This document shows, piece by piece, positions 21,887-40,949 of a DNA stretch of 64,000 nucleotides. Source of the stretch: Synechococcus sp. CCY 0621. GTDB lineage: Bacteria > Cyanobacteriota > Cyanobacteriia > PCC-6307 > Cyanobiaceae. A program made the position numbers and the translations under genes. The notes under the pieces are model-generated. The model saw nothing but the letters and a program-made list of their open reading frames with translations. It did no database searches and had not been told where the DNA came from. Position 1 is the first letter of the stretch. Every line of letters starts with the position of its first letter. The stretch lies in contig NZ_JAFKRH010000001.1 of assembly GCF_019038465.1 (NCBI RefSeq), positions 1-64,000 of the forward strand. Direction: 5' to 3'.

Positions 21887-23403
21887 TGGGACCGCAGACG
21901 CTGGAGGTTGCGGCGCTGGTCTTCGAACAGGCCGGTGAGCAGGCTGATCATGCGCCGTTCGCGCAACTTGATGTCGGCGGTGAGGGCCATGCCTGCCTGG
22001 AGCGGCACGCTGCTTTTGTCAGGCAGGGGAATGGTCTGGCGGCCCAGTTTGAGGATGACCGGAAAGTGGAGGCCCTCGGCCTGGGTGCCGAGCACCTGGG
22101 TCTGCTCCTCGGGGGTGAGGGCATCGGAGCCGATGCGCTCCACCTTGGCCGGCAGGTAGCCGAAGGTGCTGGCAGGGAAGGTCTCGATCGAGAGTTCAGC
22201 GCTCTGGCCCACCTGCACGAAGCCGATGGCCTTGTTGGGCAGGTACACCTTGGCCCGCAGGGAGTCCTGGGGCACCACCTTCAGCAGGGGGGTGGTGGCG
22301 TTGACACCCACCACGCTGCCGGCGCTGGCGTCGACGTCGAAGACGAGGCCATCGGCGGGGGCGGTGAGCAGGCCGTACTGGATCTGAAGGCGGGCCTGGC
22401 GGATCTGGGCGTCGAGATCACTGATCTGGCGCAGGTTGGCTTCGATCGCGGTGCGCAGCTCCACATCGGTGCCGGAACCGGTGTTGACCAGCTGGGAGCG
22501 CAGGCGGGCGATCTCGCTCTCCTCTTCGGCCACGCTGGTGCGCAGGTCCTGCATCTTGTTGCGCGCCTCGAGCAGCTGCACCTCGCTGACGGCGCCATCG
22601 CGCACCAGGGACTGATAGCGGCGTTCGATGTCGGCGTAGATGCGCAGGGAATCGCGGTAGCCGGCCAGGCGGGTGGTGCTCTTGGCCAGTTCCTCCCGGG
22701 CGGCGTCCAGGCGGCTGTTGAGCTCGCGGGCGCGGTCGCGCAGCTGGTTCTGCTGGTTGGCGGTGAGGCCGGCGGTGGCGGCCTCCTCCCCGAGGGTGGC
22801 CCTGGCGACGCGGTTCTCGTTGAGCAGCCGCTCGCGGATGCTCTCGGCAGCGGCCAGCTTGCTGCGGGGCTCGCGCAGGTCGAAGCGGATCAGGGGCTGG
22901 CCCTTCCTCACCGCCTGGCCCTCCTTCACCAGCACCTCCTCCACCACGCCGGGGACGGGGGAGGCGACGTCCTTGACGGTGCTGGTGGGCTCGAGCTTGC
23001 CCGGCACGGCCACGGTTTCGGAGATCGGCGCCGTGACGCTCCAGAGGCCGAGGGCGGCCACCCCGCCCACCCCCGCCCAGACCAGCAGGCTGGAGCTGCG
23101 GCGGCTCTTGCGCAGCACCACGGTTTCCCGGAACGACCATTCTTTGGCCGCTTCCGATCCCGTTGGGGTGAGGCCGCTGCCGAAGGGGTGGCTGACGGCC
23201 GAGGGGTCGGTGGGTTCGCTGGTGGGCGGGGCCTCTTCGGCAGGCGCACCGGTGGGAAGGGAATCCTGGCCCACCAGATCGACGCGCACCGGAATCACCG
23301 GGTGGCGGCGGCTGGAGCGGGGGGAGCGCAGCCAGTCGACGCAGCCGTCGAGCAGGGACACCAGGCGGGAGGCGGGATCGGCGGAGCGGGGTGGGGTGGC
23401 CAT
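21883..23403 (-). CDS. HlyD-family membrane fusion protein
   Basis: 506 residues from ATG 23403, which overlaps the ABC transporter stop by one base. There is a long cytoplasmic N-terminus of about 105 residues rich in Pro and Ser, then one transmembrane helix (LLVWAGVGGVAALGLWSV). A biotinyl-lipoyl half-domain follows (ASPVPGVVEEVLVKEGQAV), a long alpha-hairpin of about 180 residues, the second half-domain (TAPADGLVF) and a beta-barrel ending KLRERRMISLL. It would bridge the ABC exporter to an outer-membrane TolC-like channel, which is not encoded here. Confidence 0.92.
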   Translation of the reverse strand: MATPPRSADPASRLVSLLDGCVDWLRSPRSSRRHPVIPVRVDLVGQDSLPTGAPAEEAPPTSEPTDPSAVSHPFGSGLTPTGSEAAKEWSFRETVVLRKSRRSSSLLVWAGVGGVAALGLWSVTAPISETVAVPGKLEPTSTVKDVASPVPGVVEEVLVKEGQAVRKGQPLIRFDLREPRSKLAAAESIRERLLNENRVARATLGEEAATAGLTANQQNQLRDRARELNSRLDAAREELAKSTTRLAGYRDSLRIYADIERRYQSLVRDGAVSEVQLLEARNKMQDLRTSVAEEESEIARLRSQLVNTGSGTDVELRTAIEANLRQISDLDAQIRQARLQIQYGLLTAPADGLVFDVDASAGSVVGVNATTPLLKVVPQDSLRAKVYLPNKAIGFVQVGQSAELSIETFPASTFGYLPAKVERIGSDALTPEEQTQVLGTQAEGLHFPVILKLGRQTIPLPDKSSVPLQAGMALTADIKLRERRMISLLTGLFEDQRRNLQRLRSQ

Positions 23404-26354
23404 CAGCTGAGACCCTCCTGGTTCTGGCTGCGGAAGAGGGCGTAGTACCAGCCGCGCAGCTGCATCAGCTGGCGGTGGTTGCCCTGCTCCATCACGGCGC
23501 CTTTGTCCATCAACACGATCAGGTCGGCGGGCTGGACGGTGGAGAGGCGGTGGGTGATGAAGAAGACGGTGCGGCCCCGGAAGGCCTCGAACAGGTTGAT
23601 GCACACCTGGCGCTCGGTGCTGGCGTCGAGGGCGCTGGTGGCCTCGTCAAGGATCAGCATCCGGGGGTTCTGGAGCACGGCCCGGGCCAGGGCGAGGCGC
23701 TGGCGTTGGCCGCCCGAGAGGCCGGCGCCCCGCTCGCCGACGTTGGAGTTGTAGCCCTGGGGCATCTGCATGATGAAGTCGTGGGCGCAGGCGATGCGGG
23801 CGGCGCGGATCATCTCGGCGGCGGTGGCATCGGGCTTCACCATCAGCAGGTTCTCGCGGATGGTGCCGTCGAAGAGGAGCGAATCCTGGGGCACCACGCC
23901 GATCTGGCGGCGCAGGGAATAGAGCTCCACCTTGCCGATGTCGAGGCCATCGATCAGCACGCTGCCCCGCTCGGGCGAATAGAAGCGGGAGAGGAGCTTG
24001 AGCAGGGTGGATTTGCCACTGCCGGAGCCCCCCACCAGCCCCACGAAGGAGCCGGCGGGGATCTCCAGATCCACGCCATCGAGCACCAGGGGACCCTGGT
24101 CGCGGAAGCGGAAGCCCACATCGACGAACTGCACCCGGCCTTGCAGGGGGGGCAGGGGGATGTTGCTGGCCTGCTCGCTGGTCTGCTCGGTGTCGCGGTC
24201 GACCACATCGGCCACCATGCGCAGCGACTGGGTGTTGAACTGGAAGTCCTGCCAGGTGCCCACCAGTTGCACCAAGGGCTGGCGGATGTAGCCGGCGAGG
24301 ATGTTGAAGGCGAACAGGGCACCCACATTCAGTTGGCCCTGGATGATCAGCCAGACGGCCACGGCGATCACCACCAGCTGGCCGAGGTTGCTGAGAAAGT
24401 TGGACAGGTTGGCGATCGCTTCGCGGGTCACCTTGAGCTTGAAGTCTTCGCCGATGTAGGCGGAATAGCGGTTCTGGAATTCCCAGCGGGTCTTGAGTTC
24501 GGCGTTCTGGGATTTGATCGTCTGGATGCCGGTGATGGCTTCGTTGAGGAAGCTGGAGGCCCGCACCGCCTGGGCCATGGTGCGGTTGATCTGGCTGCGC
24601 ACCAGGGGATTGGTGACCAGGCCCACGGCGGCGATCAGGGGCAAGGTGGCCAGGGTCACCAGGGTCAGCAGGGGGCTGATGGCGAAGAGGATGGCCAGGT
24701 AGATCAGGCTGAAGCCGAAATCCACCAGGGTGGGCAGGGTCTGGCCGAGCAGGAAGTCGCGCAGGCGATCGAGCTGGGAGAAATAAAAGGTGATCTGGCC
24801 CACGGGGCGGGCATCGAAGAAGCCCTGGGGCAGCCGCACCAGCTGGTCGAGGATCGTGGCCTTGGCGTCCTGGTCGACGCGGTTGGCCAGGTCGGTGAAC
24901 AGGAAGCTGCGCAGCGTCTTGAAGATGCTCTCCATCAAGGTGGCGAGCAGCATCACGCTGGCGATGCTGACCAGGGCGCCGATGTTGCGGCTGGCCACCA
25001 CGCTCTGGATCAGCACCATCAGGCCGAGGGGGAAGACGAGCCGCAGGGCGTTGATCAGCACCGAGGCCACCAGGACCTCGACCAGCTCGCGGCGGTGCTG
25101 GCGCAGGAAGGGGACATACCAGCTCCAGCTGAAGCGCTGCTGCTTGGCATCGGGTTTGCGATCGAAGAGCAGCAGCTCCACCAGGCCGCCGTCGTGGGTG
25201 ATCAGCTCCTCGGCCGGCACCAGCAGGGCGCCGAGTTCGGCTTCCAGCAGGCGGGCGCGGCCATCGGGTTCGACGCCATCGAGCAGGCCGAAGTGGCCGT
25301 TCTGGAACAGCAGGGCCGGGGCTGGCACGCGCCCCAGGCGGCTGGCGGGCACCCGCGAGAGCACCACCCGCAGGCCGAGGGTGTCCATGATCTGGCCGAT
25401 GTTGACCAGGTTGAGCTGGTCCTGGCGCTGCAGGATGGCGTCCACCTGATCGGCGAGGGCATCGCGGTTCAGCGGCAGGCCGAAGTAGTCGGCCAGGGAC
25501 TGGCAGAGGGCGATGGGCACGGCGCGGACACCGCTGGCCCGGCCCAGGGCCAGCTGGCCGCTGCGGTCGCCGGCGCGGCGCGGCGGTGGTTCGAGGGCGG
25601 GCGCGTAGGTGCCGCCCGCCCCCTCGGCCAGCACGGTGGGGGTGAGGGGGTTGGGGCCGAGCGTGATCGGCGCTTCCGCCTCCCGGGGGATCGCCAGGCC
25701 CACGAGCCGCAGCCAGGGGGCCTCGGGGCCGGGGCGCACCAGGGGACGGTGCGACCAGGGCTCGGCCAGGGGCAGGCCGCTGCTGGCGTACCAGCGGAAG
25801 CCCGGAGGCAGGCCCAGCTCTCCGGGCCCGCCCGGGGGCAGGCTGCGCAGGCGCACCTGCTCGGGCGGCAGGGGCCAGTCGTCGAGGAGGGCTTCGGCGT
25901 GGGGATCCCGTTGGGCCAGGGCCAGCAGCAGGGTGTGGAGCTCGGCGGCGCTGGGCTGGTTGGCGAACCAGGCGGCGAAGTCGGGATGGCCGCTCAGGAG
26001 GTCGCGGAAGGCGGCGGCGGGGAGTTGCAAGGCCTCCACCTCGGTGGTGGCGCGCAGGTGTTCGCAGGCGTCGCGGCGCAGCAGGCCCGCCCAGCCGGCC
26101 AGGGTTCCGGGGCCGAGGCGCTCGATCGTGCGCAGGCCCCGGCCGCTGGGGCTGGGGCCGAGACTGCGCAGCTGGCCGCTGCAGAGCAGCAGCACGCCCT
26201 CGGGCAAGACGTCTGGGCGCAGGACGGTCTGGCCGAGGCGGAAGCGCAGGGGCTCCAGCAGGGCATCGATCGCGTCGCGGCGGGCGGGGGGGAGCCGGTC
26301 GAAGGGGGCGAAGTCGTTGAGCAGTCCGCTGATGGCTCCGGGGGAGGAGGTCAT
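23403..26354 (-). CDS. Type I secretion ABC exporter with cNMP-binding-like and C39-like domains
   Basis: 983 residues from ATG 26354 (ATGA overlap with the foldase gene). Order: a cNMP-binding-like beta roll (about 1-150, containing EGVLLLCSGQLRSL), a linker, a C39-peptidase-like domain (about 330-450), six transmembrane helices (about 480-750), and an ABC ATPase with Walker A GGSGSGKST, signature LSGGQRQR, Walker B MLILDEATSALD and the H-loop ITHRLST. In the C39-like domain the canonical D-C-G catalytic site is absent (VRAVPIALCQSLADYFG instead), so it probably holds cargo without cleaving it, as in RTX exporters. The architecture resembles cyanobacterial HetC-type exporters. Confidence 0.92.
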   Translation of the reverse strand: MTSSPGAISGLLNDFAPFDRLPPARRDAIDALLEPLRFRLGQTVLRPDVLPEGVLLLCSGQLRSLGPSPSGRGLRTIERLGPGTLAGWAGLLRRDACEHLRATTEVEALQLPAAAFRDLLSGHPDFAAWFANQPSAAELHTLLLALAQRDPHAEALLDDWPLPPEQVRLRSLPPGGPGELGLPPGFRWYASSGLPLAEPWSHRPLVRPGPEAPWLRLVGLAIPREAEAPITLGPNPLTPTVLAEGAGGTYAPALEPPPRRAGDRSGQLALGRASGVRAVPIALCQSLADYFGLPLNRDALADQVDAILQRQDQLNLVNIGQIMDTLGLRVVLSRVPASRLGRVPAPALLFQNGHFGLLDGVEPDGRARLLEAELGALLVPAEELITHDGGLVELLLFDRKPDAKQQRFSWSWYVPFLRQHRRELVEVLVASVLINALRLVFPLGLMVLIQSVVASRNIGALVSIASVMLLATLMESIFKTLRSFLFTDLANRVDQDAKATILDQLVRLPQGFFDARPVGQITFYFSQLDRLRDFLLGQTLPTLVDFGFSLIYLAILFAISPLLTLVTLATLPLIAAVGLVTNPLVRSQINRTMAQAVRASSFLNEAITGIQTIKSQNAELKTRWEFQNRYSAYIGEDFKLKVTREAIANLSNFLSNLGQLVVIAVAVWLIIQGQLNVGALFAFNILAGYIRQPLVQLVGTWQDFQFNTQSLRMVADVVDRDTEQTSEQASNIPLPPLQGRVQFVDVGFRFRDQGPLVLDGVDLEIPAGSFVGLVGGSGSGKSTLLKLLSRFYSPERGSVLIDGLDIGKVELYSLRRQIGVVPQDSLLFDGTIRENLLMVKPDATAAEMIRAARIACAHDFIMQMPQGYNSNVGERGAGLSGGQRQRLALARAVLQNPRMLILDEATSALDASTERQVCINLFEAFRGRTVFFITHRLSTVQPADLIVLMDKGAVMEQGNHRQLMQLRGWYYALFRSQNQEGLS

Positions 26355-27181
26355 GGGGCGGGGTCCTCCTGCAGCAGGGCGAGCATCGCGTCGAGGGGCG
26401 GCAGCGGCTGGCCTTCGAGGAGGAGCCGCGCCCGCTGCTCGAGCCATTCCTCGAAGAGTTCGCCCATCATGCGCTCCCTGGTGAGGTCGTTCAACTCGGC
26501 CGGCAGGAACTGTTCGAGCCTCAGCACCACCCAGCTCTCGCCAACCGCGAAGGGTTCGAACAGCTGGCCGGGGCGGCCACGGCGCAGGCGGCTGACCAGG
26601 CTCTCGTGGCCGGTGGCCAATGGCAGGGGGCCGATCTGGCCGCGGCAGTGGCGCTCGGGGCCTTCGGAATGGAGCGGGGCGAGGCTGTCGAAATCAGCTT
26701 CGCCCTCGGCGATCTGGTGGTGCAGCTCGGCGGCGAGGTCCTCACTGTCGACACGCAACAGGGAATAGACCACCTGGTCGAGCTCGGGCTTGCGCTGCAG
26801 GAAGCGCACTTCCACCTCGTCCTCCCAGCGGCAGCGCACCAGGCGCTGCAGGCGCCGTTTCTGGGTGGCGAGGATGCGCAGGTCGTCGAAGACCAGGCCG
26901 CGCTCCTTGAGCCAGCCGGGCACCTGGTCGTCGTCGCTGATGCCACGGCGCTCCAGGAAGGCGGCCATCAGGGCCTTTTCCTCCTCGATGGGCAGGGGGA
27001 TGGCGTGCACGAGCTGATCGAGCACCCAGGCGCGGGCCAGGGGCCGGGCCTGGGCCTGCTGGCGGATGAGGCGGTTGAGTTCGGAGAGGGCCAGCCAGGG
27101 GCGGCCGGGGGGCAGTTCCACCACCGCCGGCTCCGGCAGGCCGGCGAGGGGTTCGGGCAGGGTGTCGCGGGGGGTGCTCAT
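26351..27181 (-). CDS. Parvulin-like peptidyl-prolyl isomerase of the export operon
   Basis: 276 residues from ATG 27181, overlapping the giant glycosyltransferase stop by four bases and the ABC gene by four. The N-terminal part is SurA/PrsA-like helical (LNRLIRQQAQARPLARAWVL). The C-terminal part has a degenerate parvulin core: VVYSLLRVDSEDLAAELHHQ, FDSLAPLHSEGPERHCRGQIG, FEPFAVGESWVVLRLEQF. There is no signal peptide, so it would act in the cytoplasm, perhaps keeping the cargo export-competent. Similar isomerase genes sit beside HetC-like exporters in other cyanobacteria. Confidence 0.78.
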   Translation of the reverse strand: MSTPRDTLPEPLAGLPEPAVVELPPGRPWLALSELNRLIRQQAQARPLARAWVLDQLVHAIPLPIEEEKALMAAFLERRGISDDDQVPGWLKERGLVFDDLRILATQKRRLQRLVRCRWEDEVEVRFLQRKPELDQVVYSLLRVDSEDLAAELHHQIAEGEADFDSLAPLHSEGPERHCRGQIGPLPLATGHESLVSRLRRGRPGQLFEPFAVGESWVVLRLEQFLPAELNDLTRERMMGELFEEWLEQRARLLLEGQPLPPLDAMLALLQEDPAP

Positions 27182-30108
27182 GGGGAGGGCCCCCGGTGGG
27201 GCAGCTGGAGGCGATGGAGGGCCTCGGCCATCAGGGCCAGGCCGCGCTCGCGGCTCCAGGTGGCGCTGGCGTAGCCGAAGGCGGCAGCGGCCATGGCGCG
27301 CCAGGTGTCGTCGTCGTCGTTGAGCTGGAGCACGGCCCGGCACCAGTCGTCGGGGCTGCGGGCGATCAGCACCTCCTGGCCGTGGCGCAGGCCGGTGGCC
27401 TCGGCGGCCAGGGGGCTGAGCACCTGGGGCAGGCCGTGGGCGGCGGCGGCCACCACCTTGCCCTTGAGGCCGGCGCCTGAGCGCAGCGGCGCCACGAAGA
27501 CGCGGTGGCGGGCATACACCGTGGCCGGATCGGCCACCCAGCCCTCGACGACCACGCCGGCTTCGGCACCCCAGCGGGCGGCAAGCCCAGCATCGAGACC
27601 GCTGCCGTAGAGATGCAGCCGCAGCTCCGGCCGCCGCTGCTGCAGCTCCGGCCACACTTGCAGCAGGAAGGCCTCGACCGCATCGCGGTTGGGGGGATGG
27701 CCGTAGCTGCCCAGGAAGGCGAGGCCCGTGCGGCCCTCGAGGGGGGCGGGAGCCTCGGGGCCATGCACCACCCACGGGCAGGGGGCGGTGGCGGCCTCGC
27801 CGAGGGTCTCGGCCTCGATCACCGCCCGCTCCACCTCGGAATAGCTGAAGGTGAGATCCACCTGGCGCATCACGGCCAGTTCCTGGCGCTTCACCTCTTC
27901 CACCGCTTCGAGGGCGCGGCGGCCCGCTTCGCCCTGCAGACCCTCGGCGCGGGCGGCGCGCAGCTGGCGCAGGTGGTGCAGGTCGGCGTTGCAGAAGAGC
28001 AGGCGGGCCTGGGGGGCGTGGAGCTGGATGAGCGGCAGCGCCTGGGCGGCCACGGTGTAGCGGGTGAGGTAGATCAGCTCGAACTCACGGCCCCGCTCCC
28101 GCAGGAACTCCTCCAGGGACAGCACGAAGGGGGCGTGGATGAGCTCGATGCCGCTGCGCTGCAGCTCCTCGCTGTAGCTGGCCAGCCAGGCCAGGTTGAG
28201 GGGCAGCAGCGTGACCTTCCAGCCCAGGTCCTGGAGCAGGCCCATCTCGACAAGGGCCGCATGGCTGCCCGCATCGCGGTCGGGCCGGGGGGTTTCCTGA
28301 TCGAGGCAGAGGGCGCGGCCGAGGATGCCGCGGTCCTTGATGGTTTCCGCGGCGGCGTGGTCGGGTTCGCGGCTGCCCTCGAAGGCGGCGGCCCATTTCT
28401 GCTGGAAGACGGGCCCGTGGACCGCCTGGAAGCGCTTGAGGCCGGTGGTGGCCTCGGTGTCGGTGCCGCAGCTCAGGCCCTCGTGGTGGATCACCCGGGC
28501 CAGGGGGGCATAGCGCACCGTGTGGCCGGCCTGTCGCACCTTGAAGGCCAGGTCAGTGTCCTCGTAGTAGGCGGGGGAGAACTCCGGACTGAAGCCACCG
28601 ATCCCCTTCCACAGATCGAGGCGGATGGCCAGGGCGGCGGCGCTGACGTAGTCCACCTGGCGGGCGTAGGCGACGCGGGGATCGTGGGGGTTGCCGCCGC
28701 GGCCGTAGTTCCAGGGTTCGCCGTTGCCCCAGACGATGCCGCCGGCCTCCTGCAGGCTGCCGTCGGGGTAGAGCAGCTGGGCCCCCACCATTCCGGTGTC
28801 GCTCCAGCGCTCGAAGGGATCGAGCAGCTCCTCCAGCCAGGCGGCGCAGGGTTCGGTGTCGTTGTTGAGCAGCACCAGAAAGGGGGCGCGGGCGGCGGCG
28901 GCGCCGCTGCAGCAGGCCTGGTTGAAGCCGCGGGCGAAGTCGTGGCGGATGACGCGCACCCCGGGGGCGTCGGCAGCCAGGGCCTCGGCGGTGCCGTCGC
29001 TGGAGCCGTCGTCCACCACCACGATCTCCAACGGGATGCGGGTGGGGGCGTAGGCGATCGCCGCCAGGCAGCGGCGGGTGATGCCGTACTGGTTGTGCAC
29101 CGGGATCACGACCGACACGAGGGGATCGGCCGCGATCGGCAGCTGCAGGGACTGGCGCGGCACGGCGCCGCCGTCGGGGCCGGGTTCACTGACCATGACC
29201 GCCGGGGGACCCCCTTCGCTGCGCGGCAGGGGGTGTTCCAGCAGACGCTGCAGCAGGGGCAGATCGGGGGGCAGGGGCGTGCCATCGCTGTCGGACCAGG
29301 CCAGCCAGGTGCGCAGGCTGCGGTAGCGCTCGCGGGCCAGGGGCGAGAGCTCGTCGGGGAAGGGGGGACGGGCGTGCTGCTGCAGGGCCGCCCAGGGGGT
29401 GAGATGGAAGGGCATCAGCTCGAAACGTTGATCCAGCACCTGGCCGGCGCTGGTTTCCAGCTGCAGGTGGTGGAGGCTGCCGTCCGTGAGGGCGGTGGGG
29501 AGCAGCAGCTGGAAGGGCCAGGGCTCCTCCGGCAGCGGCTCGGGGGGTGTGATCGGCAGGGTGGTGCGGCCGTCGAGGCGCAGCAGCAGGGGCTCGGGGC
29601 CACGGCCCCAGCCGTGCAGAAGGGGGGCCTCCAGCCGGGTGAAGGCGCCTTCGCGAATCGGACCGTGCTGGCGCTGCTGGTCGATTTGGCCATAGGTGGC
29701 CGCATCGAGCCGCATCGGACTGCCGGCCAATTCGGTGCCACTGGCCGCGACCAGCACCCGCAGCACCAGCCCCTGGGAAAACGGGGGCAGCGGGTGGGAG
29801 GGGCCCCACCAGAAGCGGAAGCCGCAGGGCTGCTCGATGCCCAGCGCCTGCAGATCAGGCCGGGCCTGGGCCGCCATCAGTTCGGCGACCAGCTGGTGCT
29901 GGCCGGGGTCGAGCAGGTCGTCGATCACCATCTGCAGGTGCAGTGGCGCGGCCTGGGGCTGCAGGGGCCAGGGGCAGGCCCAGCCGCACAGGCCGCCCTG
30001 CGGGCTCCAACCCTCGAGCCGGCCCACCAGGCCGGGGCGACGCCATTCAGCGAGGGAGGCGGTGGGGGTTTCCAGGGTGCCGGGCGGCTCGGCGAGCATC
30101 GCAGCCAT
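27178..30108 (-). CDS. Large two-headed glycosyltransferase (GT2 plus GT4 domains)
   Basis: 976 residues. The first 320 residues are a beta-rich region of unknown role. A complete family 2 domain follows (about 330-580): VSVVIPVHNQ, EIVVVDDGSSDGTAEA, LVLLNNDTEP and the catalytic-type AYYEDTDLAFKVRQAG. A GT-B family 4-like domain ends the protein (about 610-960): LAFLGSYGHPPNRDAVEAF, VFVAPLRSGAGLKGKVVAA. Two active domains could add successive sugars. It heads the five-gene secretion operon with four-base overlaps, tying glycosylation to export. Its start nearly coincides with an alternative start of the divergent gene on the plus strand. Confidence 0.87.
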   Translation of the reverse strand: MAAMLAEPPGTLETPTASLAEWRRPGLVGRLEGWSPQGGLCGWACPWPLQPQAAPLHLQMVIDDLLDPGQHQLVAELMAAQARPDLQALGIEQPCGFRFWWGPSHPLPPFSQGLVLRVLVAASGTELAGSPMRLDAATYGQIDQQRQHGPIREGAFTRLEAPLLHGWGRGPEPLLLRLDGRTTLPITPPEPLPEEPWPFQLLLPTALTDGSLHHLQLETSAGQVLDQRFELMPFHLTPWAALQQHARPPFPDELSPLARERYRSLRTWLAWSDSDGTPLPPDLPLLQRLLEHPLPRSEGGPPAVMVSEPGPDGGAVPRQSLQLPIAADPLVSVVIPVHNQYGITRRCLAAIAYAPTRIPLEIVVVDDGSSDGTAEALAADAPGVRVIRHDFARGFNQACCSGAAAARAPFLVLLNNDTEPCAAWLEELLDPFERWSDTGMVGAQLLYPDGSLQEAGGIVWGNGEPWNYGRGGNPHDPRVAYARQVDYVSAAALAIRLDLWKGIGGFSPEFSPAYYEDTDLAFKVRQAGHTVRYAPLARVIHHEGLSCGTDTEATTGLKRFQAVHGPVFQQKWAAAFEGSREPDHAAAETIKDRGILGRALCLDQETPRPDRDAGSHAALVEMGLLQDLGWKVTLLPLNLAWLASYSEELQRSGIELIHAPFVLSLEEFLRERGREFELIYLTRYTVAAQALPLIQLHAPQARLLFCNADLHHLRQLRAARAEGLQGEAGRRALEAVEEVKRQELAVMRQVDLTFSYSEVERAVIEAETLGEAATAPCPWVVHGPEAPAPLEGRTGLAFLGSYGHPPNRDAVEAFLLQVWPELQQRRPELRLHLYGSGLDAGLAARWGAEAGVVVEGWVADPATVYARHRVFVAPLRSGAGLKGKVVAAAAHGLPQVLSPLAAEATGLRHGQEVLIARSPDDWCRAVLQLNDDDDTWRAMAAAAFGYASATWSRERGLALMAEALHRLQLPHRGPSP

Positions 30109-30163
30109 GCTGGAATCGTTGGTGGAACGTTATTGCCGCCCTACCGCTTTGTCTCGTGTCGCC

Positions 30164-31834
30164 ATGGACCCGGCAGGCGGAGAACCGGCGGTACGGGTGC
30201 CGCTGCGGCTGCTGCGGGAGCTGGCGCTGCCCTACCCGGCCTATCACCAGCTGATCGCGTCGCTGCGGCCCGAGGCCAGCGGGGCTGGTGAGGATCCCCT
30301 GCTGGCGGAACTGGCGGAAGCCAGTGCGGCGGCCCTGCGGGAAGCCCTGGAACACGGCCGCCTGGAGGCGGCCCTGGCCGCCCACGATGATCTGCTGGGC
30401 CATGTGATCGAGCTGGCGGCGGCGCGGCCGGAGGTGGCGACGGTGCTGTGGCAGCGCTACGGCGACCTGCTCGGCCAGCTGACGGGTCAGGTGCACGAGC
30501 GGTTGGTCCCCCGCAACGGCGAGCCGGTTGATTTCAGCCTCCCTGAACGGGCCGGCGACGGGGCGCTCTGCCTGCGCATGGCGGCGATCCTGGAGCCGAC
30601 GGCGGGCCAACCCTGGACGGTGCCCGACTGGCTGCCGGTGTTGGAGCAGCAGCTGGTGCAGCACGGAGCCCTTGCCTGGCAGCAGAAGGTTTCGGTGGAG
30701 GCGGCCGCCGCCGGGCCCTGCCTGGATCTGTTCCTGCGCCTTTGCCAGCTGCTGGATCCCGTGCCGGTGTGGGTGGACCTGGCCTGCCGCACGGCGATGG
30801 GCCAGGTGATCGAAGCCCTGCCGCCCGCCGGCGCCCTGGCGGAGCCGGAGCTGGCCCTGCTGGTCGCGCGGGTGGGCCGTCTGCCGGTGGCGGCGGAGCA
30901 GCGAGCGGCCTTCGATGCCGCCCTACTGCGGGCCCGCTTCAGCCTGGAGCTGCTGCAGCAGGGCCGTGACGTCAGGCGCCCCGGCGACGGCGAGGGTGTG
31001 GAGGTGCTGGAGGCGGAATGGCTGGAGGACGAAGCGCCCGATCCTGGGGCGGCGGGCTCCCTGCCGGCGGTGGAGTGGCGCCCAGGCGCTCTGGTGGTGG
31101 AGCTGGATGCGCTGGAGCTGCAGCTGCTGCACCACGCCGAAGGGGCGGCCGAGCCCCTGGAGGAGGCCTTGGCCGAGCTGCGCCGCCGCCACCACGACAG
31201 CGACTTCTGGAACGCGCCTGCTGCGGAGGCGTTGGGGGCGGAGCCTGACCCGCTGGAGCTGCTGCGGCGCTTCGAGCTGGAGGCCGGCTTCTACGCCACC
31301 ACCCAGGCACCGCTGGAGAGCCTGCGGCAGTGGGCCCGACCGGCGTTGCAGGCCCTGCTGCAGGCCCAGGTGTGGAGCGCCGCTGCGGCCACCCACGACC
31401 TGTGGCAGCCCTGGGGGCAGCCGGGTCAGCGGCGCCAACCGCCGCGCGGCTCCGAGCTGCTGGAGCGGCTCGGCGGTGGTGAGGTGCTGCTGGTGGGCGA
31501 GGGCCCCGAAGCCACCGAGGCGCTGCTGGAGGCCCACCGGGCCGGGCGGTTGTTCCCAGGGGGGGCGTTCGGCCTGCGCTGCCTGGCGGTGCCCCAGAGC
31601 CGCCACCCGCAGCGGCCCGCCGCGGGTTTCGAGTACAGCCTGGAGGCCCTGGTGGCGGCGGTGGAGGCGCTCTACCAGGAGCGGCCGTTCACGGTGCTGC
31701 TGGCCGGGGGCGGGGCCTACCGGCTGCCCCTGGCCCAGGCGATCGGCAGCCGCTACGGGGTGCTGGCGGTGGCGGGGGCCACGGGTCTGGCGGCGTGGCT
31801 GGGGGCCGAGGCGGCGCCGGAGCTGGGCCGATGA
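30164..31834 (+). CDS. Hypothetical protein, possible GT-D-like C-terminal domain
   Basis: 556 residues from ATG 30164; ATG 30107 is in frame but would overlap the divergent gene. Residues 1-430 are Leu/Ala/Glu-rich and probably helical. The C-terminal 120 residues (EVLLVGEGPEATEALLEA, then FTVLLAGGGAYRLPLAQAIG, then YGVLAVAGATGLAAWLG) look Rossmann-like. The ordering resembles GT-D glycosyltransferase domains (VGDGE-like then GAGxLGK-like). That resemblance is weak and by eye only. It is coupled by ATGA overlap to the next small gene and diverges from the export operon. Confidence 0.65.
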   Translation: MDPAGGEPAVRVPLRLLRELALPYPAYHQLIASLRPEASGAGEDPLLAELAEASAAALREALEHGRLEAALAAHDDLLGHVIELAAARPEVATVLWQRYGDLLGQLTGQVHERLVPRNGEPVDFSLPERAGDGALCLRMAAILEPTAGQPWTVPDWLPVLEQQLVQHGALAWQQKVSVEAAAAGPCLDLFLRLCQLLDPVPVWVDLACRTAMGQVIEALPPAGALAEPELALLVARVGRLPVAAEQRAAFDAALLRARFSLELLQQGRDVRRPGDGEGVEVLEAEWLEDEAPDPGAAGSLPAVEWRPGALVVELDALELQLLHHAEGAAEPLEEALAELRRRHHDSDFWNAPAAEALGAEPDPLELLRRFELEAGFYATTQAPLESLRQWARPALQALLQAQVWSAAAATHDLWQPWGQPGQRRQPPRGSELLERLGGGEVLLVGEGPEATEALLEAHRAGRLFPGGAFGLRCLAVPQSRHPQRPAAGFEYSLEALVAAVEALYQERPFTVLLAGGGAYRLPLAQAIGSRYGVLAVAGATGLAAWLGAEAAPELGR

Positions 31835-34708: not shown

Positions 34709-34874
34709 GGCCCTGGGATTGCGGCAAGGCGATCAACTCAGTTGGGAGCTTGAGGACGGTTCGGTGCGCGTGCGGGCCGTGGCGCCGTTGGATCTGGCCT
34801 ATCTGCAGGGGCTGGAGAGCAGCCTGAACGAGTGGAGCAGCCCGGAGGACGAGGAGGCGTTCCGCGATCTGTGA
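34650..34874 (+). CDS. AbrB/MazE-like (SpoVT-AbrB domain) antitoxin
   Basis: 74 residues from ATG 34650. The first 45 residues are a textbook swapped-hairpin AbrB domain: TLTAKGQVTVPKAVREALGL, RQGDQLSWELEDGSV. The acidic C-terminal tail (EWSSPEDEEAFRDL) is the kind of segment that wraps and blocks a toxin. It would neutralise the downstream PemK-like toxin and repress the operon. The stop overlaps the toxin's GTG start (GTGA). Confidence 0.88.
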   Translation: MEVATLTAKGQVTVPKAVREALGLRQGDQLSWELEDGSVRVRAVAPLDLAYLQGLESSLNEWSSPEDEEAFRDL

Positions 34875-35215
34875 GCGTCCTCGACCGCCATACGGTGGTT
34901 CGGGTGCCGTTCCCCTTCACGGATCGGGAGGCCCCGAAGCTAAGGCCGGCCTTGGTGCTCTCCCAGCCCGAATTCCAGCGAGGCTGCGGCCATCTGCTGC
35001 TGGCGATGATCACATCAGCGCGGCAATCCTCGTGGCCCCTCGATTGGCCCATTGAAGATCTGCAGGCCGCCGGCCTGCCCCAGCCCTGCCTGGTGCGTTT
35101 CAAGCTGTTCACCCTGGATGAGCGGCTGGTGCTGGGGAGCCTGGGTTCTTTGGCCGCCGCCGATCGGACAGGTGTAGCGGCCCGGCTGGGCAAGCTTCTA
35201 CCCACTGGGCCGTGA
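34871..35215 (+). CDS. PemK/MazF-family endoribonuclease toxin
   Basis: 114 residues starting at GTG 34871, overlapping the antitoxin stop by four bases. PemK/MazF features: VVRVPFPFTDREAPKLRPAL (the conserved P-F-x-F-T-D ... K-x-R-P-A-L block), the central LLLAMITSARQ strand with the catalytic-site Thr-Ser, and a C-terminal KLFTLDERLVLGSLG. It is predicted to cut mRNA when free of its antitoxin. The pair looks intact, unlike two neighbouring decayed modules in the window. Confidence 0.88.
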   Translation: MSVLDRHTVVRVPFPFTDREAPKLRPALVLSQPEFQRGCGHLLLAMITSARQSSWPLDWPIEDLQAAGLPQPCLVRFKLFTLDERLVLGSLGSLAAADRTGVAARLGKLLPTGP

Positions 35216-35293
35216 GCAAGGCCCCCTCAAGGCTCGCAGGCGGGCAGGCCCGACAGCAGGCGGCAGAGGGGACAGGGCTGACTGAAAGTCACT

Positions 35294-35580
35294 TCAAGCT
35301 GTTTCTGCTGGGCTGGTGCCAACCCAACACAGCATTCGGTGGATGTCATGCGCCACTGCCATTGGCCAGCACGGATTGACCGAAAGCTGTTGCAGCGCAA
35401 CAGGTTGAGAGCCAAGGTGCGCAGCAGGGCCAGGACCTGCACCCCATGGCGCTGGCTGTAGCGTTGGGCGTCCTCACCGACCTGTGTGTCGCGGGGCCAA
35501 TGCCACTGGTTTTCGATCGCCCAGCGTTGCCGCATCAGGCGCAGCAACGCTTTTGGGCTGGTTCGCAGGGCGGGATGTAG
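35294..35580 (-). pseudogene. ISAs1-family transposase, C-terminal remnant with frameshift
   Basis: Reading leftwards from about 35580, LRTSPKALLRLMRQRWAIEN then HWPRDTQVGEDAQRY and VLALLRTLALNLLRCNSFRS match the C-terminal part of ISAs1 DDE transposases. Near 35380 the match moves to another frame, which continues MAVAHDIHRMLCWVGTSP and stops at 35294-35296. The original frame runs on meaninglessly to 35227. The N-terminal two-thirds and both terminal repeats are absent. It marks the left edge of the low-G+C island. Confidence 0.75.
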
Positions 35581-36171: not shown

Positions 36172-37308
36172 ATGCCTCCACAAACGTTCTACATCTATGG
36201 CTACTATGGATCAAAGAATGCCGGCGACGAGGCCTTTCGATTAGCATTTCGGCATATACTTCCATCGCATTCAAGTCTTCGATTCATCAGGCCATCAGAA
36301 CTCGCAGACAACTTGGATCTCAGTAGCCAGATCCGTCAGGATGTTGCTGCTGGCAAAGCGCGCTTAATTGTGGGCGGTGGCGCAATTATTGGCGAGCCCT
36401 ACTTCTGGGCTCATTTGCCAGCCGAAACACCATTTCATGTGATTAGTGCTGACATTGGATCACAGGACAATCTTGTCAATAGGTACATTCCTAGCCTCGC
36501 CCAGATGCAAACATCCTGGATTCGTAGCGAGACTGATGCGGCACAGCTTCGAAAATTGACATCCTTAGATCGCAGTATCTCATACCTACCCGATATCGTG
36601 CATTCGCTTGGGCCGAGTCCTGAAGATAGTCAGGTGGTTGCCAGCCTTGACCGAGCAACCCGTAATCGTCGGCTTTTGGAACTCATGGAGAAATATTGCG
36701 AAAATACGCAGAGTCCAGACAAGTTAAGAGATAAAAACATGGCCATATTCTTGTCTGATCATTATTATGACTACAAGACTATTCAAAGCGGAAATGTGCT
36801 TGAAGCTCTTGAGCGCGAGGCTTCCGACAGGATATTCCTCCGTAATCTACGACTCTCCTTTGATGAGATCAGTCCGTACTATAATCTCTATTTCTTTAGC
36901 CTAAGCTACTGGTATAATTCAATTGACGCTTTTGTCGGATATCGCCTGGCGAGGGCCTCCAGTCAGTCAGTTCAATACAATATTCTATCTCGCTATATCG
37001 ATCCGGCTGAGATCTTGAGTTTGATGCCCTATTTTGACACAGCTGTTTCGATGAAGTTTCACGGCTTGATCTTCCCCTTGACGGCCGGCATTCCAGTGAT
37101 GAATATTGGCAACTCAAAAAAGAATCAAGACCTTGCGCGCCAAATGGGTATCGTATCAGTGTCGCCAGAAGAGATGACGATGCCATTGTTTATGACAGCA
37201 CTCAAGCAAGTTGAGTCTATTGAGTATTCTACGTCACTGACTGAAAGTCAGCGACTCGCAAGAGAGGCGATCCACGTGACATTCTCTAATCCTGACTTAT
37301 GGGACTAA
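36172..37308 (+). CDS. Polysaccharide pyruvyl transferase family protein
   Basis: 378 residues. The start YIYGYYGSKNAGDEAFRLAF is the classic G-x-x-N-x-G-D-E opening of CsaB/WcaK-type pyruvyl transferases. Residues near 60-75 give RLIVGGGAIIG, and the C-terminal SMKFHGLIFPLTAGIPVMNIG is the conserved H-G-x-I/L..P block. Enzymes of this family put ketal pyruvate on surface polysaccharides, which can anchor S-layer proteins carrying SLH domains. One 60-base sample inside the gene (36181-36240) is 48% G+C, against 77% in a sample at 30421-30480. It converges with the next gene by 12 bases. Confidence 0.85.
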   Translation: MPPQTFYIYGYYGSKNAGDEAFRLAFRHILPSHSSLRFIRPSELADNLDLSSQIRQDVAAGKARLIVGGGAIIGEPYFWAHLPAETPFHVISADIGSQDNLVNRYIPSLAQMQTSWIRSETDAAQLRKLTSLDRSISYLPDIVHSLGPSPEDSQVVASLDRATRNRRLLELMEKYCENTQSPDKLRDKNMAIFLSDHYYDYKTIQSGNVLEALEREASDRIFLRNLRLSFDEISPYYNLYFFSLSYWYNSIDAFVGYRLARASSQSVQYNILSRYIDPAEILSLMPYFDTAVSMKFHGLIFPLTAGIPVMNIGNSKKNQDLARQMGIVSVSPEEMTMPLFMTALKQVESIEYSTSLTESQRLAREAIHVTFSNPDLWD

Positions 37309-39453
37309 GGAATGAAAAAGCTCATCATTGTCAATGAGATTGATTAGGTCTTTCATATTTACCGTGATGACGCATGTTCTGCAGTCAAACAGATTAAAGA
37401 AGATACGAACTTCCTCCCTCTGCACCAATACCGAGCTCACGTAGCAGACACCTTCATTCTTGCGAAAGCCATGATCCTTGGCAAGGGCCTGTGTATTCAC
37501 TGATAGGATTGGCTCACGGCTTATGCTCATCGGCTCAAGGCTTTCGCTTGAGATAGTCATCAGAAATTGGTCATAGATATATGAACCTAGTCGACGTCGG
37601 TGAACGATCATTGCAAGGCCTCGTTCTTCCTTCCCATCGTGCAGCATGAAGGGATGTGCACTATTGCGAATTGGGCAGTTTAAAGCGGCTGGTAGATTCA
37701 GCGTTTTATGATGAACTTGATGCCAATCTAGTAGGCTGCTATCGGCACGGAAGACTTGCCAAGGCTGGACTGAATAGAACAGGTAAGCTTGATTGTCCTT
37801 TTCATGGATGAGCCAGTTCTTTTCGAAGCCGCTTGGCAACTGAGAAGTGTTCTGATGGTGTTCGCTAAGCCGATGCAGGATTGGCAATCCCTCAAAATGA
37901 ATGACGCCCTGTTCAGGGTCTAAGCGCCCCAATGCTTGGACGACTAGCATGTCGTCGATGGTATTGTTCGCGGCTGCATTCGTGGAAATTTTGGGTAGCC
38001 ATTTCTGATAGCGAGTTCGAGATAAAATGACTGCTCCAATGGCGTAGATGTTGCCTTGATAGGCGAATAGCCTCAAGTCTTCTATCTTACACTCACTTGG
38101 ATAGCCGATGTAGACTAATGGCTTGACTTGAAGCCTTTTAGGATCTGCTAAACTGCCTGAGGCGGGCTGCTCCCATCCTAGGAAGTTAATCGATGGATGT
38201 CGTCCAACATCCGCACGTCGTCCAGACCAGCTGTCAAAATTTCGTTCATAACGCCACGTAGAAACTACCGTCTCTTGAGTTGCTAGCAGTGATTGGTTCA
38301 TCACCCCCGACGGACCATGGCCGGATAGCCCTCTGACGATGGCATAGCGATCCGAAAGATGTTGACAAGGAGTCAGTGAAAATCCTGCCATCTCGCTTTG
38401 AACGAGGAGTCCTTCCACCAGGCAACTGCGCGTTGATTTCGGGGAGAGCAGGGAAGCTGTCCTGTCCGCACCGACCAGTGTTTCCTGCACCGGTGATTCC
38501 ATGGCCTTGTGAAGAAAGGCACCATCCCCCAGTTGATAGTCAGCGGGATCCCTGAACACTAAGGTCGACATGCTGTCGATAACAGGTCCATAGCATGAAT
38601 CGACGAGTAGAAATTCGGAAGGTCTTGTTAGGGGTTTAGGGCTTAGCAGAAGATAGGCATCAATGCCACGGTTGAGGGAAAATGGGACCGGCTTACGGCT
38701 ATCGAAGTAGGTGGAAAAACTATGAAAGCCGGGTTTGGAGATTGAGACCTTGCGGGTGGAGAGCGGAGCGCATATCAGCGAATCTTTTTTGTGACTAAGC
38801 TTTTTCAGTAATGGCGTGACTTCAGCCACCAGATGAAAGAGTCGCATCTCGCCGACGATGGCAATGAATGGATGGGGGATCAGAAGATACGCGTGGTACC
38901 CATCGTGCGGTTGGTTAGCGGCGATTTGGAGATGCCATAATCCACCCCCAAGGGACTCCTTGCCAACATAGATCGATTCGTCGCTAGCTCTGGACATGCC
39001 ATCTCTCTGTGACTCCATGCCGAAGTAATTGGCCAGTTGGTTGCCGAAGCAGAACTGGTCAACCTGGTGCGATGTCTCCAGCTGCGTACTTTGATGGAGG
39101 ATCTCGGATTCTTGAATTTCCTGATCGAGACCATGCAGGAACCAAGCCTCATGGCTGCGGTCGTCGTAGACACCATGGAAGGCACACAGGAAGCGATAGC
39201 GCAGCAGCAATTCGGTGACAGTTGTCAGCCGTTGCTTCTGGCTTGAGTGCAAGGCCAGCGACTGGTAATAGGCGAATACCAGGGATTCACCTAAGCCCGC
39301 CTTTGCTTCTTGCAAGAGCACCGATTTCTCGATGCGTTGGAGGCCGCCGGCTAGGAGCAGAGCGGCTGACGCTGTGAAGTGCTCAGAGATGCCAATGACC
39401 TTCAGCAGTTCAGATGCGATTGGAGCCAGCGGCTCCCCAGCTTGATGGTTCAC
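37297..39453 (-). CDS. Putative beta-propeller carbohydrate-active protein (718 aa)
   Basis: 718 residues without signal peptide or membrane helix. The first 120 residues are helical; the remainder is beta-rich. From about residue 560 the pattern EKNWLIHEKDNQAYLFYSVQ, NCPIRNSAHPF, MIVHRRR and FRKNEGVCYVSSVLV resembles five-bladed propeller glycosidases or phosphorylases of the GH130/GH43 type, but catalytic acids were not identified. Its ATG overlaps the 394-residue gene's stop (ATGA), so they are a coupled pair. Lower G+C than its surroundings. The activity is unknown; handling of a surface glycan is inferred from context. Confidence 0.6.
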   Translation of the reverse strand: MNHQAGEPLAPIASELLKVIGISEHFTASAALLLAGGLQRIEKSVLLQEAKAGLGESLVFAYYQSLALHSSQKQRLTTVTELLLRYRFLCAFHGVYDDRSHEAWFLHGLDQEIQESEILHQSTQLETSHQVDQFCFGNQLANYFGMESQRDGMSRASDESIYVGKESLGGGLWHLQIAANQPHDGYHAYLLIPHPFIAIVGEMRLFHLVAEVTPLLKKLSHKKDSLICAPLSTRKVSISKPGFHSFSTYFDSRKPVPFSLNRGIDAYLLLSPKPLTRPSEFLLVDSCYGPVIDSMSTLVFRDPADYQLGDGAFLHKAMESPVQETLVGADRTASLLSPKSTRSCLVEGLLVQSEMAGFSLTPCQHLSDRYAIVRGLSGHGPSGVMNQSLLATQETVVSTWRYERNFDSWSGRRADVGRHPSINFLGWEQPASGSLADPKRLQVKPLVYIGYPSECKIEDLRLFAYQGNIYAIGAVILSRTRYQKWLPKISTNAAANNTIDDMLVVQALGRLDPEQGVIHFEGLPILHRLSEHHQNTSQLPSGFEKNWLIHEKDNQAYLFYSVQPWQVFRADSSLLDWHQVHHKTLNLPAALNCPIRNSAHPFMLHDGKEERGLAMIVHRRRLGSYIYDQFLMTISSESLEPMSISREPILSVNTQALAKDHGFRKNEGVCYVSSVLVQREEVRIFFNLFDCRTCVITVNMKDLINLIDNDELFHSLVP

Positions 39454-40634
39454 GACGCGGCTATCAAGGTAAGTCTGAAGTCACGCAGGACTCGATGGTA
39501 AGTGTCATCAATGATGGAATCCTGGTGCTGGGGCAGAATCTTCTCAAGCGGAATGTCACCGAGTCTTTCGGCCGGTAGCGATTGCAGCTGCTGTTGGAGT
39601 GAGCCATAGAGTCCAGCACTGATTGGGGGATCTTGGAAGCCCTTGATGCGCCATTTGAGTAGCTCTTTTATTGTCAGGTGCGGTGTGCATTGGCAGCTAG
39701 AGCATTCATGAGACTCCCTGAGACTAGTGATCAGAATGCGTATCATCTTCCGGCGCTCTTTGTTGATATTGCGATGCACATAATGAACCACATCGCCGAG
39801 ATCGTGCGGAATCATGTCGGGATGCAGGAGATCGGAGGCCCTCAGGGCATTGGCATGGCAAAGATCTGGCATGAGAAGCTCCAGGGAAGCAGCGGCAAAG
39901 TGGTGCACTGCAGCAAGAGCACTGACCTGGTGCTCCATGATGTCTGAATCCGCCAGAGGTAAAGCCAAATGGGCAAATCCAATCCAGTTACGTCGTCTTA
40001 GTGCGGCAACACTTGTCCAATATCGAAACCAATAATTGCAGGCATCTCTCTGGAGGGCTTCTGCAAAGTCGCTATATCCGTCGACCCCACTCACTTCGGC
40101 CAGCAATCCCTTGAGTGCATGAGTCCAGGCCTCGTCAGGGGCTAGCTCTTGCATGCGGCCAACGCAATCGCGGAGGCTGTCAGAATCGTTGGCCCGGTGG
40201 GCCTGCAAGCCATTCGCTACCAGGCCCTGCTGCTGAAGCTCATCTCTTTTCTTCCCAATGGGTTCTATGCATGAGAGTGGCTGTCTTGGAGGACTTGTGC
40301 TTTCTGATCTCACGCAATGGTCGCCATCGACTTCGGCTAGGTTTGATAACTTCTCCCACACCTCTGGCGATCTGGGATGATGCAATAGGCTCTTTCTTAG
40401 CTTTACAGCAACTGAATGTAGTTCCATGCCGGCCCCGGGAAGTTTGAGCAGAAGTGATCGGAAGGATTCGGATGGGAGGTGGAATGAGTCTCTTCGTTCT
40501 CTGAATGCATGCAACCAATACCATTTCGCATTCAGTGTCGTTGCCTCCGGATTGGGACTTGACATCACAGAATGATTCTGACGTATGTCTATCAAGGGCG
40601 AGTAAGTAGCTGATGAGAGTAGCCTTGAGTGCAC
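39450..40634 (-). CDS. Unrecognised helical protein (394 aa) coupled to the propeller gene
   Basis: 394 residues from 40634; the ATG at 40565 (MSSPNPEA) is an alternative start. Mostly helical, with stretches suggesting TPR-like pairs (AWTHALKGLLAEVSGVDGYS, NYWFRYWTSVAALRRRNW), and a CSSCQC cysteine cluster near residue 310. There is no membrane segment. I recognise no family. The four-base overlap with the propeller gene and the shared low G+C suggest both came in together and work together. Confidence 0.6.
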   Translation of the reverse strand: MHSRLLSSATYSPLIDIRQNHSVMSSPNPEATTLNAKWYWLHAFRERRDSFHLPSESFRSLLLKLPGAGMELHSVAVKLRKSLLHHPRSPEVWEKLSNLAEVDGDHCVRSESTSPPRQPLSCIEPIGKKRDELQQQGLVANGLQAHRANDSDSLRDCVGRMQELAPDEAWTHALKGLLAEVSGVDGYSDFAEALQRDACNYWFRYWTSVAALRRRNWIGFAHLALPLADSDIMEHQVSALAAVHHFAAASLELLMPDLCHANALRASDLLHPDMIPHDLGDVVHYVHRNINKERRKMIRILITSLRESHECSSCQCTPHLTIKELLKWRIKGFQDPPISAGLYGSLQQQLQSLPAERLGDIPLEKILPQHQDSIIDDTYHRVLRDFRLTLIAAS

Positions 40635-40949
40635 TGTAAGTATGAATGAGCCCAGGGTGACAATCTGTGCCGTCTGCTCCGCTCGGTGATTGATCGGGCT
40701 TCGCTTGGCGGTACTGCCGGTTGTCCCAGTGACTTCTGCTGGATTTGAATCGTTTGGCTTCCTTGAATCAATGCTTTGCGGATTGGGATGCTTTCGACAG
40801 AATCTAGATCGTTATCTTGCTGCAGATCATCCATCTTCAGATGGACTCGTTGATGACGTGCTTGTCTGAACAGATCCCTGTCAACGAGGAATCCCACCTG
40901 GTATAGGTGCAGAGTCCTTGGCGGGTGAGGTCTGCCCTGTAGTGGGCTG
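40635..40949. other. 315-bp gap in the island; nothing supported
   Basis: Several short open frames occur on both strands but none has protein-like composition or a recognisable motif. No tRNA, terminator hairpin with T-run, or strong promoter was seen. It may hold the promoter of the downstream 394-residue gene. Confidence 0.4.

Follow-up and report, generated by a model that had tools for sequence, protein, structure and literature searches.

A propeller fold is unusual for a sugar transferase, and two reports name GT108 as the family shown to have this fold (PMC8950772, PMC8476585). According to these sources, the Leishmania mannosyltransferase/phosphorylases of GT108 are five-bladed propellers that act as sugar transferases. 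One of them also predicts a new glycosyltransferase fold for GT91/BMT (PMC8476585), a family whose beta-mannose chemistry is a possible parallel to the protein P1 described here. In GH130, two enzymes are reported to make 1,2-beta-oligomannan from mannose 1-phosphate (PMC4264767), and Asn74, Arg89, Glu141, the candidate acid Asp142, the beta-1,2 determinant Lys199 and Asp363 are named for BT3780 (PMC4599007). At the level of gene clusters, methyl-, pyruvyl- and glycosyltransferases are described together in the Mimivirus fibril glycan cluster (PMC9614988), and glycosyltransferase and pyruvyl transferase genes of Anabaena alr3057-alr3068 are described as mutated in phage-resistant strains (PMC12507012).

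Here we analysed a stretch of 64,000 nucleotides from Synechococcus sp. CCY 0621 (the window) that carries two overlapping genes, P1 and P2, and found that the two are joined by the genes of a methyltransferase and a pyruvyl transferase in a cassette of four. The titles and abstract openings of the open-licence literature yielded no work on this cassette, a literature search for the EKNW motif gave nothing useful, and the enzyme family of P1 seems to be undescribed.

Results

Two overlapping genes

The original prediction described a coupled pair in which a 718-residue protein overlaps by ATGA with a 394-residue partner. Both frames are real and overlapping, and the 718-residue frame stands as described, whereas the junction sequence and the length of the partner had to be corrected:

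37297..39453, minus strand: P1 gene, 718 aa, from the ORF list
39450..40427, minus strand: P2 gene with corrected start, 325 aa, TPR-like helical protein, GTGA overlap with P1

The overlap of four bases reads GTGA in the window, one base off the ATGA first reported; the junction is GTGA in six and ATGA in two of the eight other genomes compared. As a mechanical ORF, P2 extends over 39450-40634 on the minus strand (394 aa from the first possible start), whereas the P2 homologues (nine aligned) are 321-329 aa long and start at, or two residues ahead of, the Met equivalent to the window ATG at 40427. Because the homologue starts match this ATG, the true length of P2 is most likely 325 aa judging from the alignment, the 394-aa frame is probably an over-extension, and the span should stop at 40427. 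P1 is 49-60% identical to its homologues in the eight other aligned genomes, and this identity together with the conserved gene order excludes chance as the origin of both frames.

P1 is predicted to end in a GH130-like propeller

Structure prediction, a check put forward with the original prediction, gives P1 a propeller fold in an AlphaFold model of moderate confidence (nine sequences, no templates; pLDDT 68, pTM 0.55). The predicted model has the following parts, the last line giving the propeller region on the DNA:

Residues about 10-143: N-terminal helical part
Residues about 162-373: mixed alpha/beta middle
Residues about 384-715: C-terminal five-bladed propeller of the GH130/GT108 type
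37300..38352, minus strand: P1 propeller region, residues 368-718, with the proposed active-site residues

Residues 384-715 are nearly all beta, with 22 listed strands, two of which we read as short continuations; grouped by order, which is our own assignment on a predicted model, the strands make five blades of four.

GH130 entries fill the first 32 rows of a Foldseek search against solved structures (best E 1.9e-8). In VIA-align, a re-comparison of Foldseek's best 1000 chains, GH130 mannoside phosphorylases or mannosidases account for the 21 best structural matches (Z 24.5-19.1, rmsd 3.5-4.3 Å, 280-310 residues aligned). All 21 are chains, or same-sequence entries, found by phmmer from a cyanobacterial GH130 protein, and some of them bear the title 'putative glycosidase' only. 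The next rows are the Leishmania GT108 structures (6q4x, 6q4w, 6q50; Z 17.6-17.0), tied with GH43-type and related enzymes (Z 17.5-16.5). P1 thus resembles GH130 (RaMP1, 5ay9; BT3780, 5a7v) in its predicted five-bladed propeller, for which that family supplies the best structural matches. It resembles GT108 in the same architecture, but the match to GT108 is weaker than that to GH130, is tied with GH43 and has no counterpart in sequence, and the domain set and operon of P1 differ. Henipavirus glycoprotein and kelch-type rows also appeared in the PDB and viral fold searches, ranked lower, and we rejected them as generic propeller matches.

Collectively, the model predicts a five-bladed propeller at the C-terminal end of P1, with GH130 as its nearest family. 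The original prediction of a GH130/GH43-like propeller therefore stands for the propeller and for GH130 (Z 19.1-24.5), and is weaker for GH43 (Z up to 17.5). The ranking in this predicted model supports GH130 above GH43, and because the GT108 rows are tied with the GH43-type rows, the fold by itself gives no preference for a transferase or a hydrolase.

Sequence comparisons and a proposed active site

P1 has no Pfam match up to E 1 and no NCBIfam family above cut-off, and seven of its homologues have no Pfam match up to E 10. The GH130 family PF04041, unmatched by P1, has no match in the whole genome. Unlike GT91/BMT (PF12141), P1 lacks a match to the Pfam family, as do the seven homologues, and among 117 cyanobacterial genomes PF12141 gave three weak matches, none above cut-off. 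PF08950 (DUF1861), which we take to stand for the GT108 Leishmania family, has no match in P1 and two weak matches in the 117 genomes, none above cut-off. Profile searches of the PDB with P1 returned nothing relevant, and no Leishmania MPT chain up to E 10.

We also compared the P1 propeller with GH130 profiles by hhalign. The score of 20.2 (P 0.089) was reached by 9 of 100 column shuffles (mean 16.1), the reversed control scoring 15.5, so that homology between P1 and GH130 is not significant at the level of sequence. Since the profile comparison is not significant, the link to GH130 rests on the fold and on the positions of invariant residues:

P1 residues Asn386, Arg401, Glu458, Asp459, Lys545 and Asp690: proposed active-site residues, equivalents of BT3780 N74, R89, E141, D142, K199 and D363

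In a MAFFT alignment of P1 with four cyanobacterial GH130 proteins, which is not statistically secure, Asn386, Arg401, Glu458, Asp459, Arg461, Tyr627 and Asp690 align with residues of matching type in L032, a GH130 protein whose residues we took as equivalents of those of BT3780. Across the four GH130 rows, the Glu-Asp pair and the late Asp coincide in all four, the Asn in two and the Arg in one, with the other rows shifted. All seven residues are invariant among nine aligned P1 sequences, and the Asn386-Arg401 spacing of 15 equals the N74-R89 spacing of BT3780. Lys545 was placed by eye alone and is left unaligned by MAFFT; His618 falls on a GH130 His in the hhalign register and one place off in MAFFT. 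The search for catalytic Asp/Glu residues, also proposed at the outset, thus yields candidates in Glu458-Asp459 (E-D-x-R) and Asp690, which align with GH130 and are invariant in nine sequences. Invariant positions make up 151 of 351 in the propeller, compared with 41/160, 50/170 and 6/37 in the upstream parts, which makes the propeller the most conserved region of P1.

P1 therefore carries an Asn, an Arg, a Glu-Asp-x-Arg and a late Asp in places corresponding to those of GH130. It is unlike GH130 in having no Pfam GH130 match, in its roughly 350 extra N-terminal residues, in its biosynthetic gene context with a coupled TPR-like gene and, in a by-eye alignment, in having no phosphate Arg. The position of the phosphorylase phosphate-binding Arg lies at or beside the invariant Ser561 (by eye, in a poorly aligned region), and P1 shows no evident counterpart of the Glu pair E227/E268 of BT3780, in a region that is weakly aligned. 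These differences bear on the alternative that P1, as a GH130-like phosphorylase or beta-mannosidase, serves to trim or recycle the glycan of the cluster. All 21 best solved-structure rows are GH130 enzymes, P1 retains the acid Asp along with several substrate residues, and a phosphorylase could build as well, given the reported GH130 oligomannan synthesis (PMC4264767). Against this, Ser561 at or next to the phosphate position and the lack of an evident Glu pair, both read from a weak alignment, together with neighbouring genes that build glycans, lead us to regard a trimming or recycling enzyme as unlikely.

P2 is a predicted helical protein

P2 has no Pfam or NCBIfam family above cut-off and no TPR motif above the Pfam cut-off; one homologue that was scanned reaches TPR_17 at E 0.005, under the cut-off. 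The P2 model is all helical (pLDDT 77.7), in agreement with the first description of the partner as a helical protein of no recognised family. Its structural matches have TPR proteins first, with TPR regions of O-GlcNAc transferase also among the rows. The match to the Sgt2 TPR domain has a Z of 11.5 over 131 residues, compared with a tool level of about 13 for helical repeats, and on this predicted model the value lies within the accidental range for helical repeats and is not decisive.

A TPR-like partner raises the question of whether the P1 propeller might bind glycans or act as a scaffold without being catalytic, in which case P1 and P2 would form a docking complex for other enzymes. The large N-terminal part of P1, of unrecognised fold, and the lack of a known activity of P1 would fit such a role. 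However, the counterparts of the GH130 active site are invariant and the propeller is the part of P1 that is best conserved (151/351), and we consider a purely docking function rather improbable.

P1 and P2 occur together

P1 was found in one of the 99 nearest genomes, the window's own, and was absent from all 41 other genomes of the genus within that search. Among 400 Cyanobiaceae drawn, 10 carry P1, and a P2 profile run on 400 Cyanobiaceae drawn in the same way matched 11 genomes, namely the 10 P1 carriers and one more with a partial match only (E 2.4e-4). Co-occurrence across genomes, a further check attached to the original prediction, is borne out: in every one of the 10 carriers, P2 is the gene immediately upstream of P1. 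One carrier, G317, has a second, partial P2 match on a separate contig.

A P1 profile run over 386 genomes of the phylum gave two matches, both among the carriers already found. Outside the Cyanobiaceae, no P1 relatives were found in the phages and plasmids searched; in viral contigs, 19 stretches fitted a P1 pattern and none was confirmed as a relative. Against PHROGs, the window P1 reaches E 0.21 and 0.25 at best, and three homologues have no match.

The pair belongs to a four-gene cassette

The original prediction took P1 and P2 for a two-protein unit. Instead, they are part of a cassette with two further genes:

36172..37308, plus strand: polysaccharide pyruvyl transferase (P0003, PF04230), convergent with P1 and conserved beside it
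40428..40949, no strand: 522-base spacer between the methyltransferase and P2, single copy in the genome
40950..41837, minus strand: methyltransferase-like protein (Methyltransf_11), upstream of P2

The pyruvyl transferase scores 29.7 bits against PF04230 (cut-off 25.3), and far below the cut-off of the CsaB equivalog model (40.8 versus 213.1). It faces P1 in 9 of 10 carriers; in G311, the remaining carrier, the contig stops inside P1, and another contig holds the end of P1 and the pyruvyl transferase. Likewise, the methyltransferase precedes P2 in 9 of 10 carriers, the contig of G317 beginning at P2. The 522-base spacer is missing from all eight other carriers that have both flanking genes on the contig.

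Next to the cassette lies a second group of genes:

23403..31834, no strand: neighbouring type I secretion-like/glycosyltransferase cluster
23403-26447, minus strand: cNMP-binding/ABC type I secretion-like transporter
Within 26351-27775, minus strand: PPIase
27178-30108, minus strand: GT2/GT4 double glycosyltransferase
Within 29696-31834, plus strand: relative of a 720-aa protein, no Pfam match, beside the GT2/GT4 gene; also at L013:5919-8081

We call the transporter type I secretion-like because its score is under the cut-off of the type I secretion models. The 720-aa gene adjoins the methyltransferase in eight of the nine other carriers, and in seven of the nine the contig continues to GT2/GT4, PPIase and the type I secretion-like ABC transporter; the contigs of G311 and G317 are too short to show this cluster. 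On the far side of the cassette, eight of the nine have a 365-aa gene and a gene without Pfam match that, from its motif, we presume to be GT61-like, with a histidine kinase and a response regulator next to them wherever the contig or stretch extends far enough. The distribution of the 720-aa family is much broader than that of the cassette, with matches, some of them partial, in 40 of 300 Cyanobiaceae at E 1e-5. Kinship between P1 and the neighbouring 720-aa protein was considered and rejected (E 1.5 and above).

In the window the cassette is inverted relative to the cluster and lies about 4.3 kb away, with a DUF6880 gene, a MazEF-like pair and a transposase piece in between. The junction at 34632-35547 is disturbed, holding a MazE/PemK-like toxin-antitoxin pair and a DDE transposase piece.

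Fold matches in giant viruses

In the viral structure library BFVD, the best match of P1 is an unnamed protein of Mimivirus LCMiAC02 (E 1.8e-13, 17% identity, TM 0.31 by query), followed by several Pithovirus LCPAC proteins, with two uncultured Caudovirales phage proteins in the first ten. Matches named LicD/FKRP, fucosyltransferase and WcaK-like pyruvyl transferase also appear, and one of the giant-virus proteins that resemble the P1 propeller belongs to a record named polysaccharide pyruvyl transferase. The viral TM-scores are low (0.31 and below by query length), and E-values of BFVD and PDB searches are not directly comparable. If the viral proteins are multi-domain, the pairing of propeller and pyruvyl transfer may have more than one origin. 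The cassette shares with the Mimivirus cluster the same trio of activities, and giant-virus proteins top the viral fold matches of P1, a likeness of names and scores. With Anabaena alr3057-alr3068 it shares surface glycosyltransferase and pyruvyl transferase genes, a likeness of gene functions.

The cassette occupies an exchangeable slot

The GC content of the cassette is 50.5%, compared with 70.7% and 69.3% in its flanks. In trees, the other carriers pair identically for P1, P2 and the pyruvyl transferase, and the window has no well-supported place, with long branches for P1 (0.69) and P2 (1.09) and an ordinary one for the pyruvyl transferase (0.31). We infer that the window cassette was acquired from a lower-GC source outside the genomes sampled.

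Three genomes of the same genus without P1 (G006, G008 and G023) keep the flanks, with the transporter/GT2-GT4/720-aa cluster on one side and a 409-aa gene and cysS on the other, and hold other genes in the slot between them. A relative of the methyltransferase is present there in each (55, 56 and 39% identical, respectively). The slot of G008 also contains a GT2 fused to TPRs, a GT4, a sulfotransferase and another GT2-like gene; that of G006 has frames matching the TPR-GT2, sulfotransferase and GT2-like gene of G008, and that of G023 has GT47 and GT61. These three slots contain 60 ORFs of 150 aa or more, none of which is matched by the P1 or P2 profile. In a fourth relative, G009, the contig ends beside the 720-aa relative, before the slot, and this genome was not counted.

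P1 thus fills a slot used elsewhere by ordinary glycosyltransferases, and P2 perhaps takes the place of a TPR domain. Because the slot holds glycosyltransferases in relatives, which is our strongest argument, P1 would build rather than degrade a glycan. The original prediction spoke of glycan processing; degradation is less likely, as the neighbours build glycans (GT2/GT4 in the cluster; GT2, GT4, GT47, GT61 and sulfotransferase in the slot), and building is the likelier role for the four-gene module.

The low GC content (0.505 versus about 0.70) and the position beside a transposase piece and a toxin-antitoxin pair would also be expected if P1 and P2 were unrelated to glycans and mere passengers of a mobile genomic island. 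This is very improbable, however, as P2-P1 stand with the pyruvyl transferase, and with the methyltransferase where the contig reaches, in 10 genomes, and further glycan genes adjoin in seven of the nine other carriers.

With glycosyltransferase and sulfotransferase sets that differ among G006, G008 and G023, the slot is apparently a variable glycan locus of the genus. The 409-aa protein (window 42022-43251) has no Pfam match, adjoins cysS in the window and in these three genomes, and has matches in 12 of 31 genomes of the genus, its own included, two of them weak.

Discussion

On balance we favour, with some reserve, the reading that the four genes form an exchangeable surface-glycan module in which P1 is a propeller-type sugar transferase and P2 its TPR partner. 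This reading draws on the genes, their order, their linkage and the exchange at the locus, all seen directly in the genomes, and on two predicted folds; from these we infer the transferase activity, the sugar, the role of P2 and the order of the steps.

In such a module, the catalytic domain of P1 would be a five-bladed propeller of the GH130/GT108 kind, not a GT-A or GT-B fold. Asp459, in the E-D-x-R motif, would serve as acid/base, with Asn386, Arg401 and Asp690 holding the sugars, and an inverting transfer would add a hexose in beta linkage, with mannose or a sugar resembling it as the most likely candidate. P2, translated together with P1, would be a TPR scaffold that holds P1, its acceptor or the other members of the complex. 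The sugar would next receive its methyl and pyruvate caps from the methyltransferase and the pyruvyl transferase, and the product may be carried on material from the neighbouring type I secretion-like/glycosyltransferase cluster.

More tentatively, P1 could found a new family of propeller-fold (GH130/GT108) glycosyltransferases, shared with unnamed giant-virus proteins and working with a TPR protein in an exchangeable methyl/pyruvyl-sugar module. If true, a bacterial enzyme of this type with its own helper gene would illustrate how propellers resembling those of hydrolases work as transferases. It would also be a candidate tool for making sugars that are beta-linked, pyruvylated and methylated. 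The swapping of entire modules beside a secretion-like cluster offers a testable picture of surface variation in these cyanobacteria, and such variation may bear on the adsorption of cyanophages.
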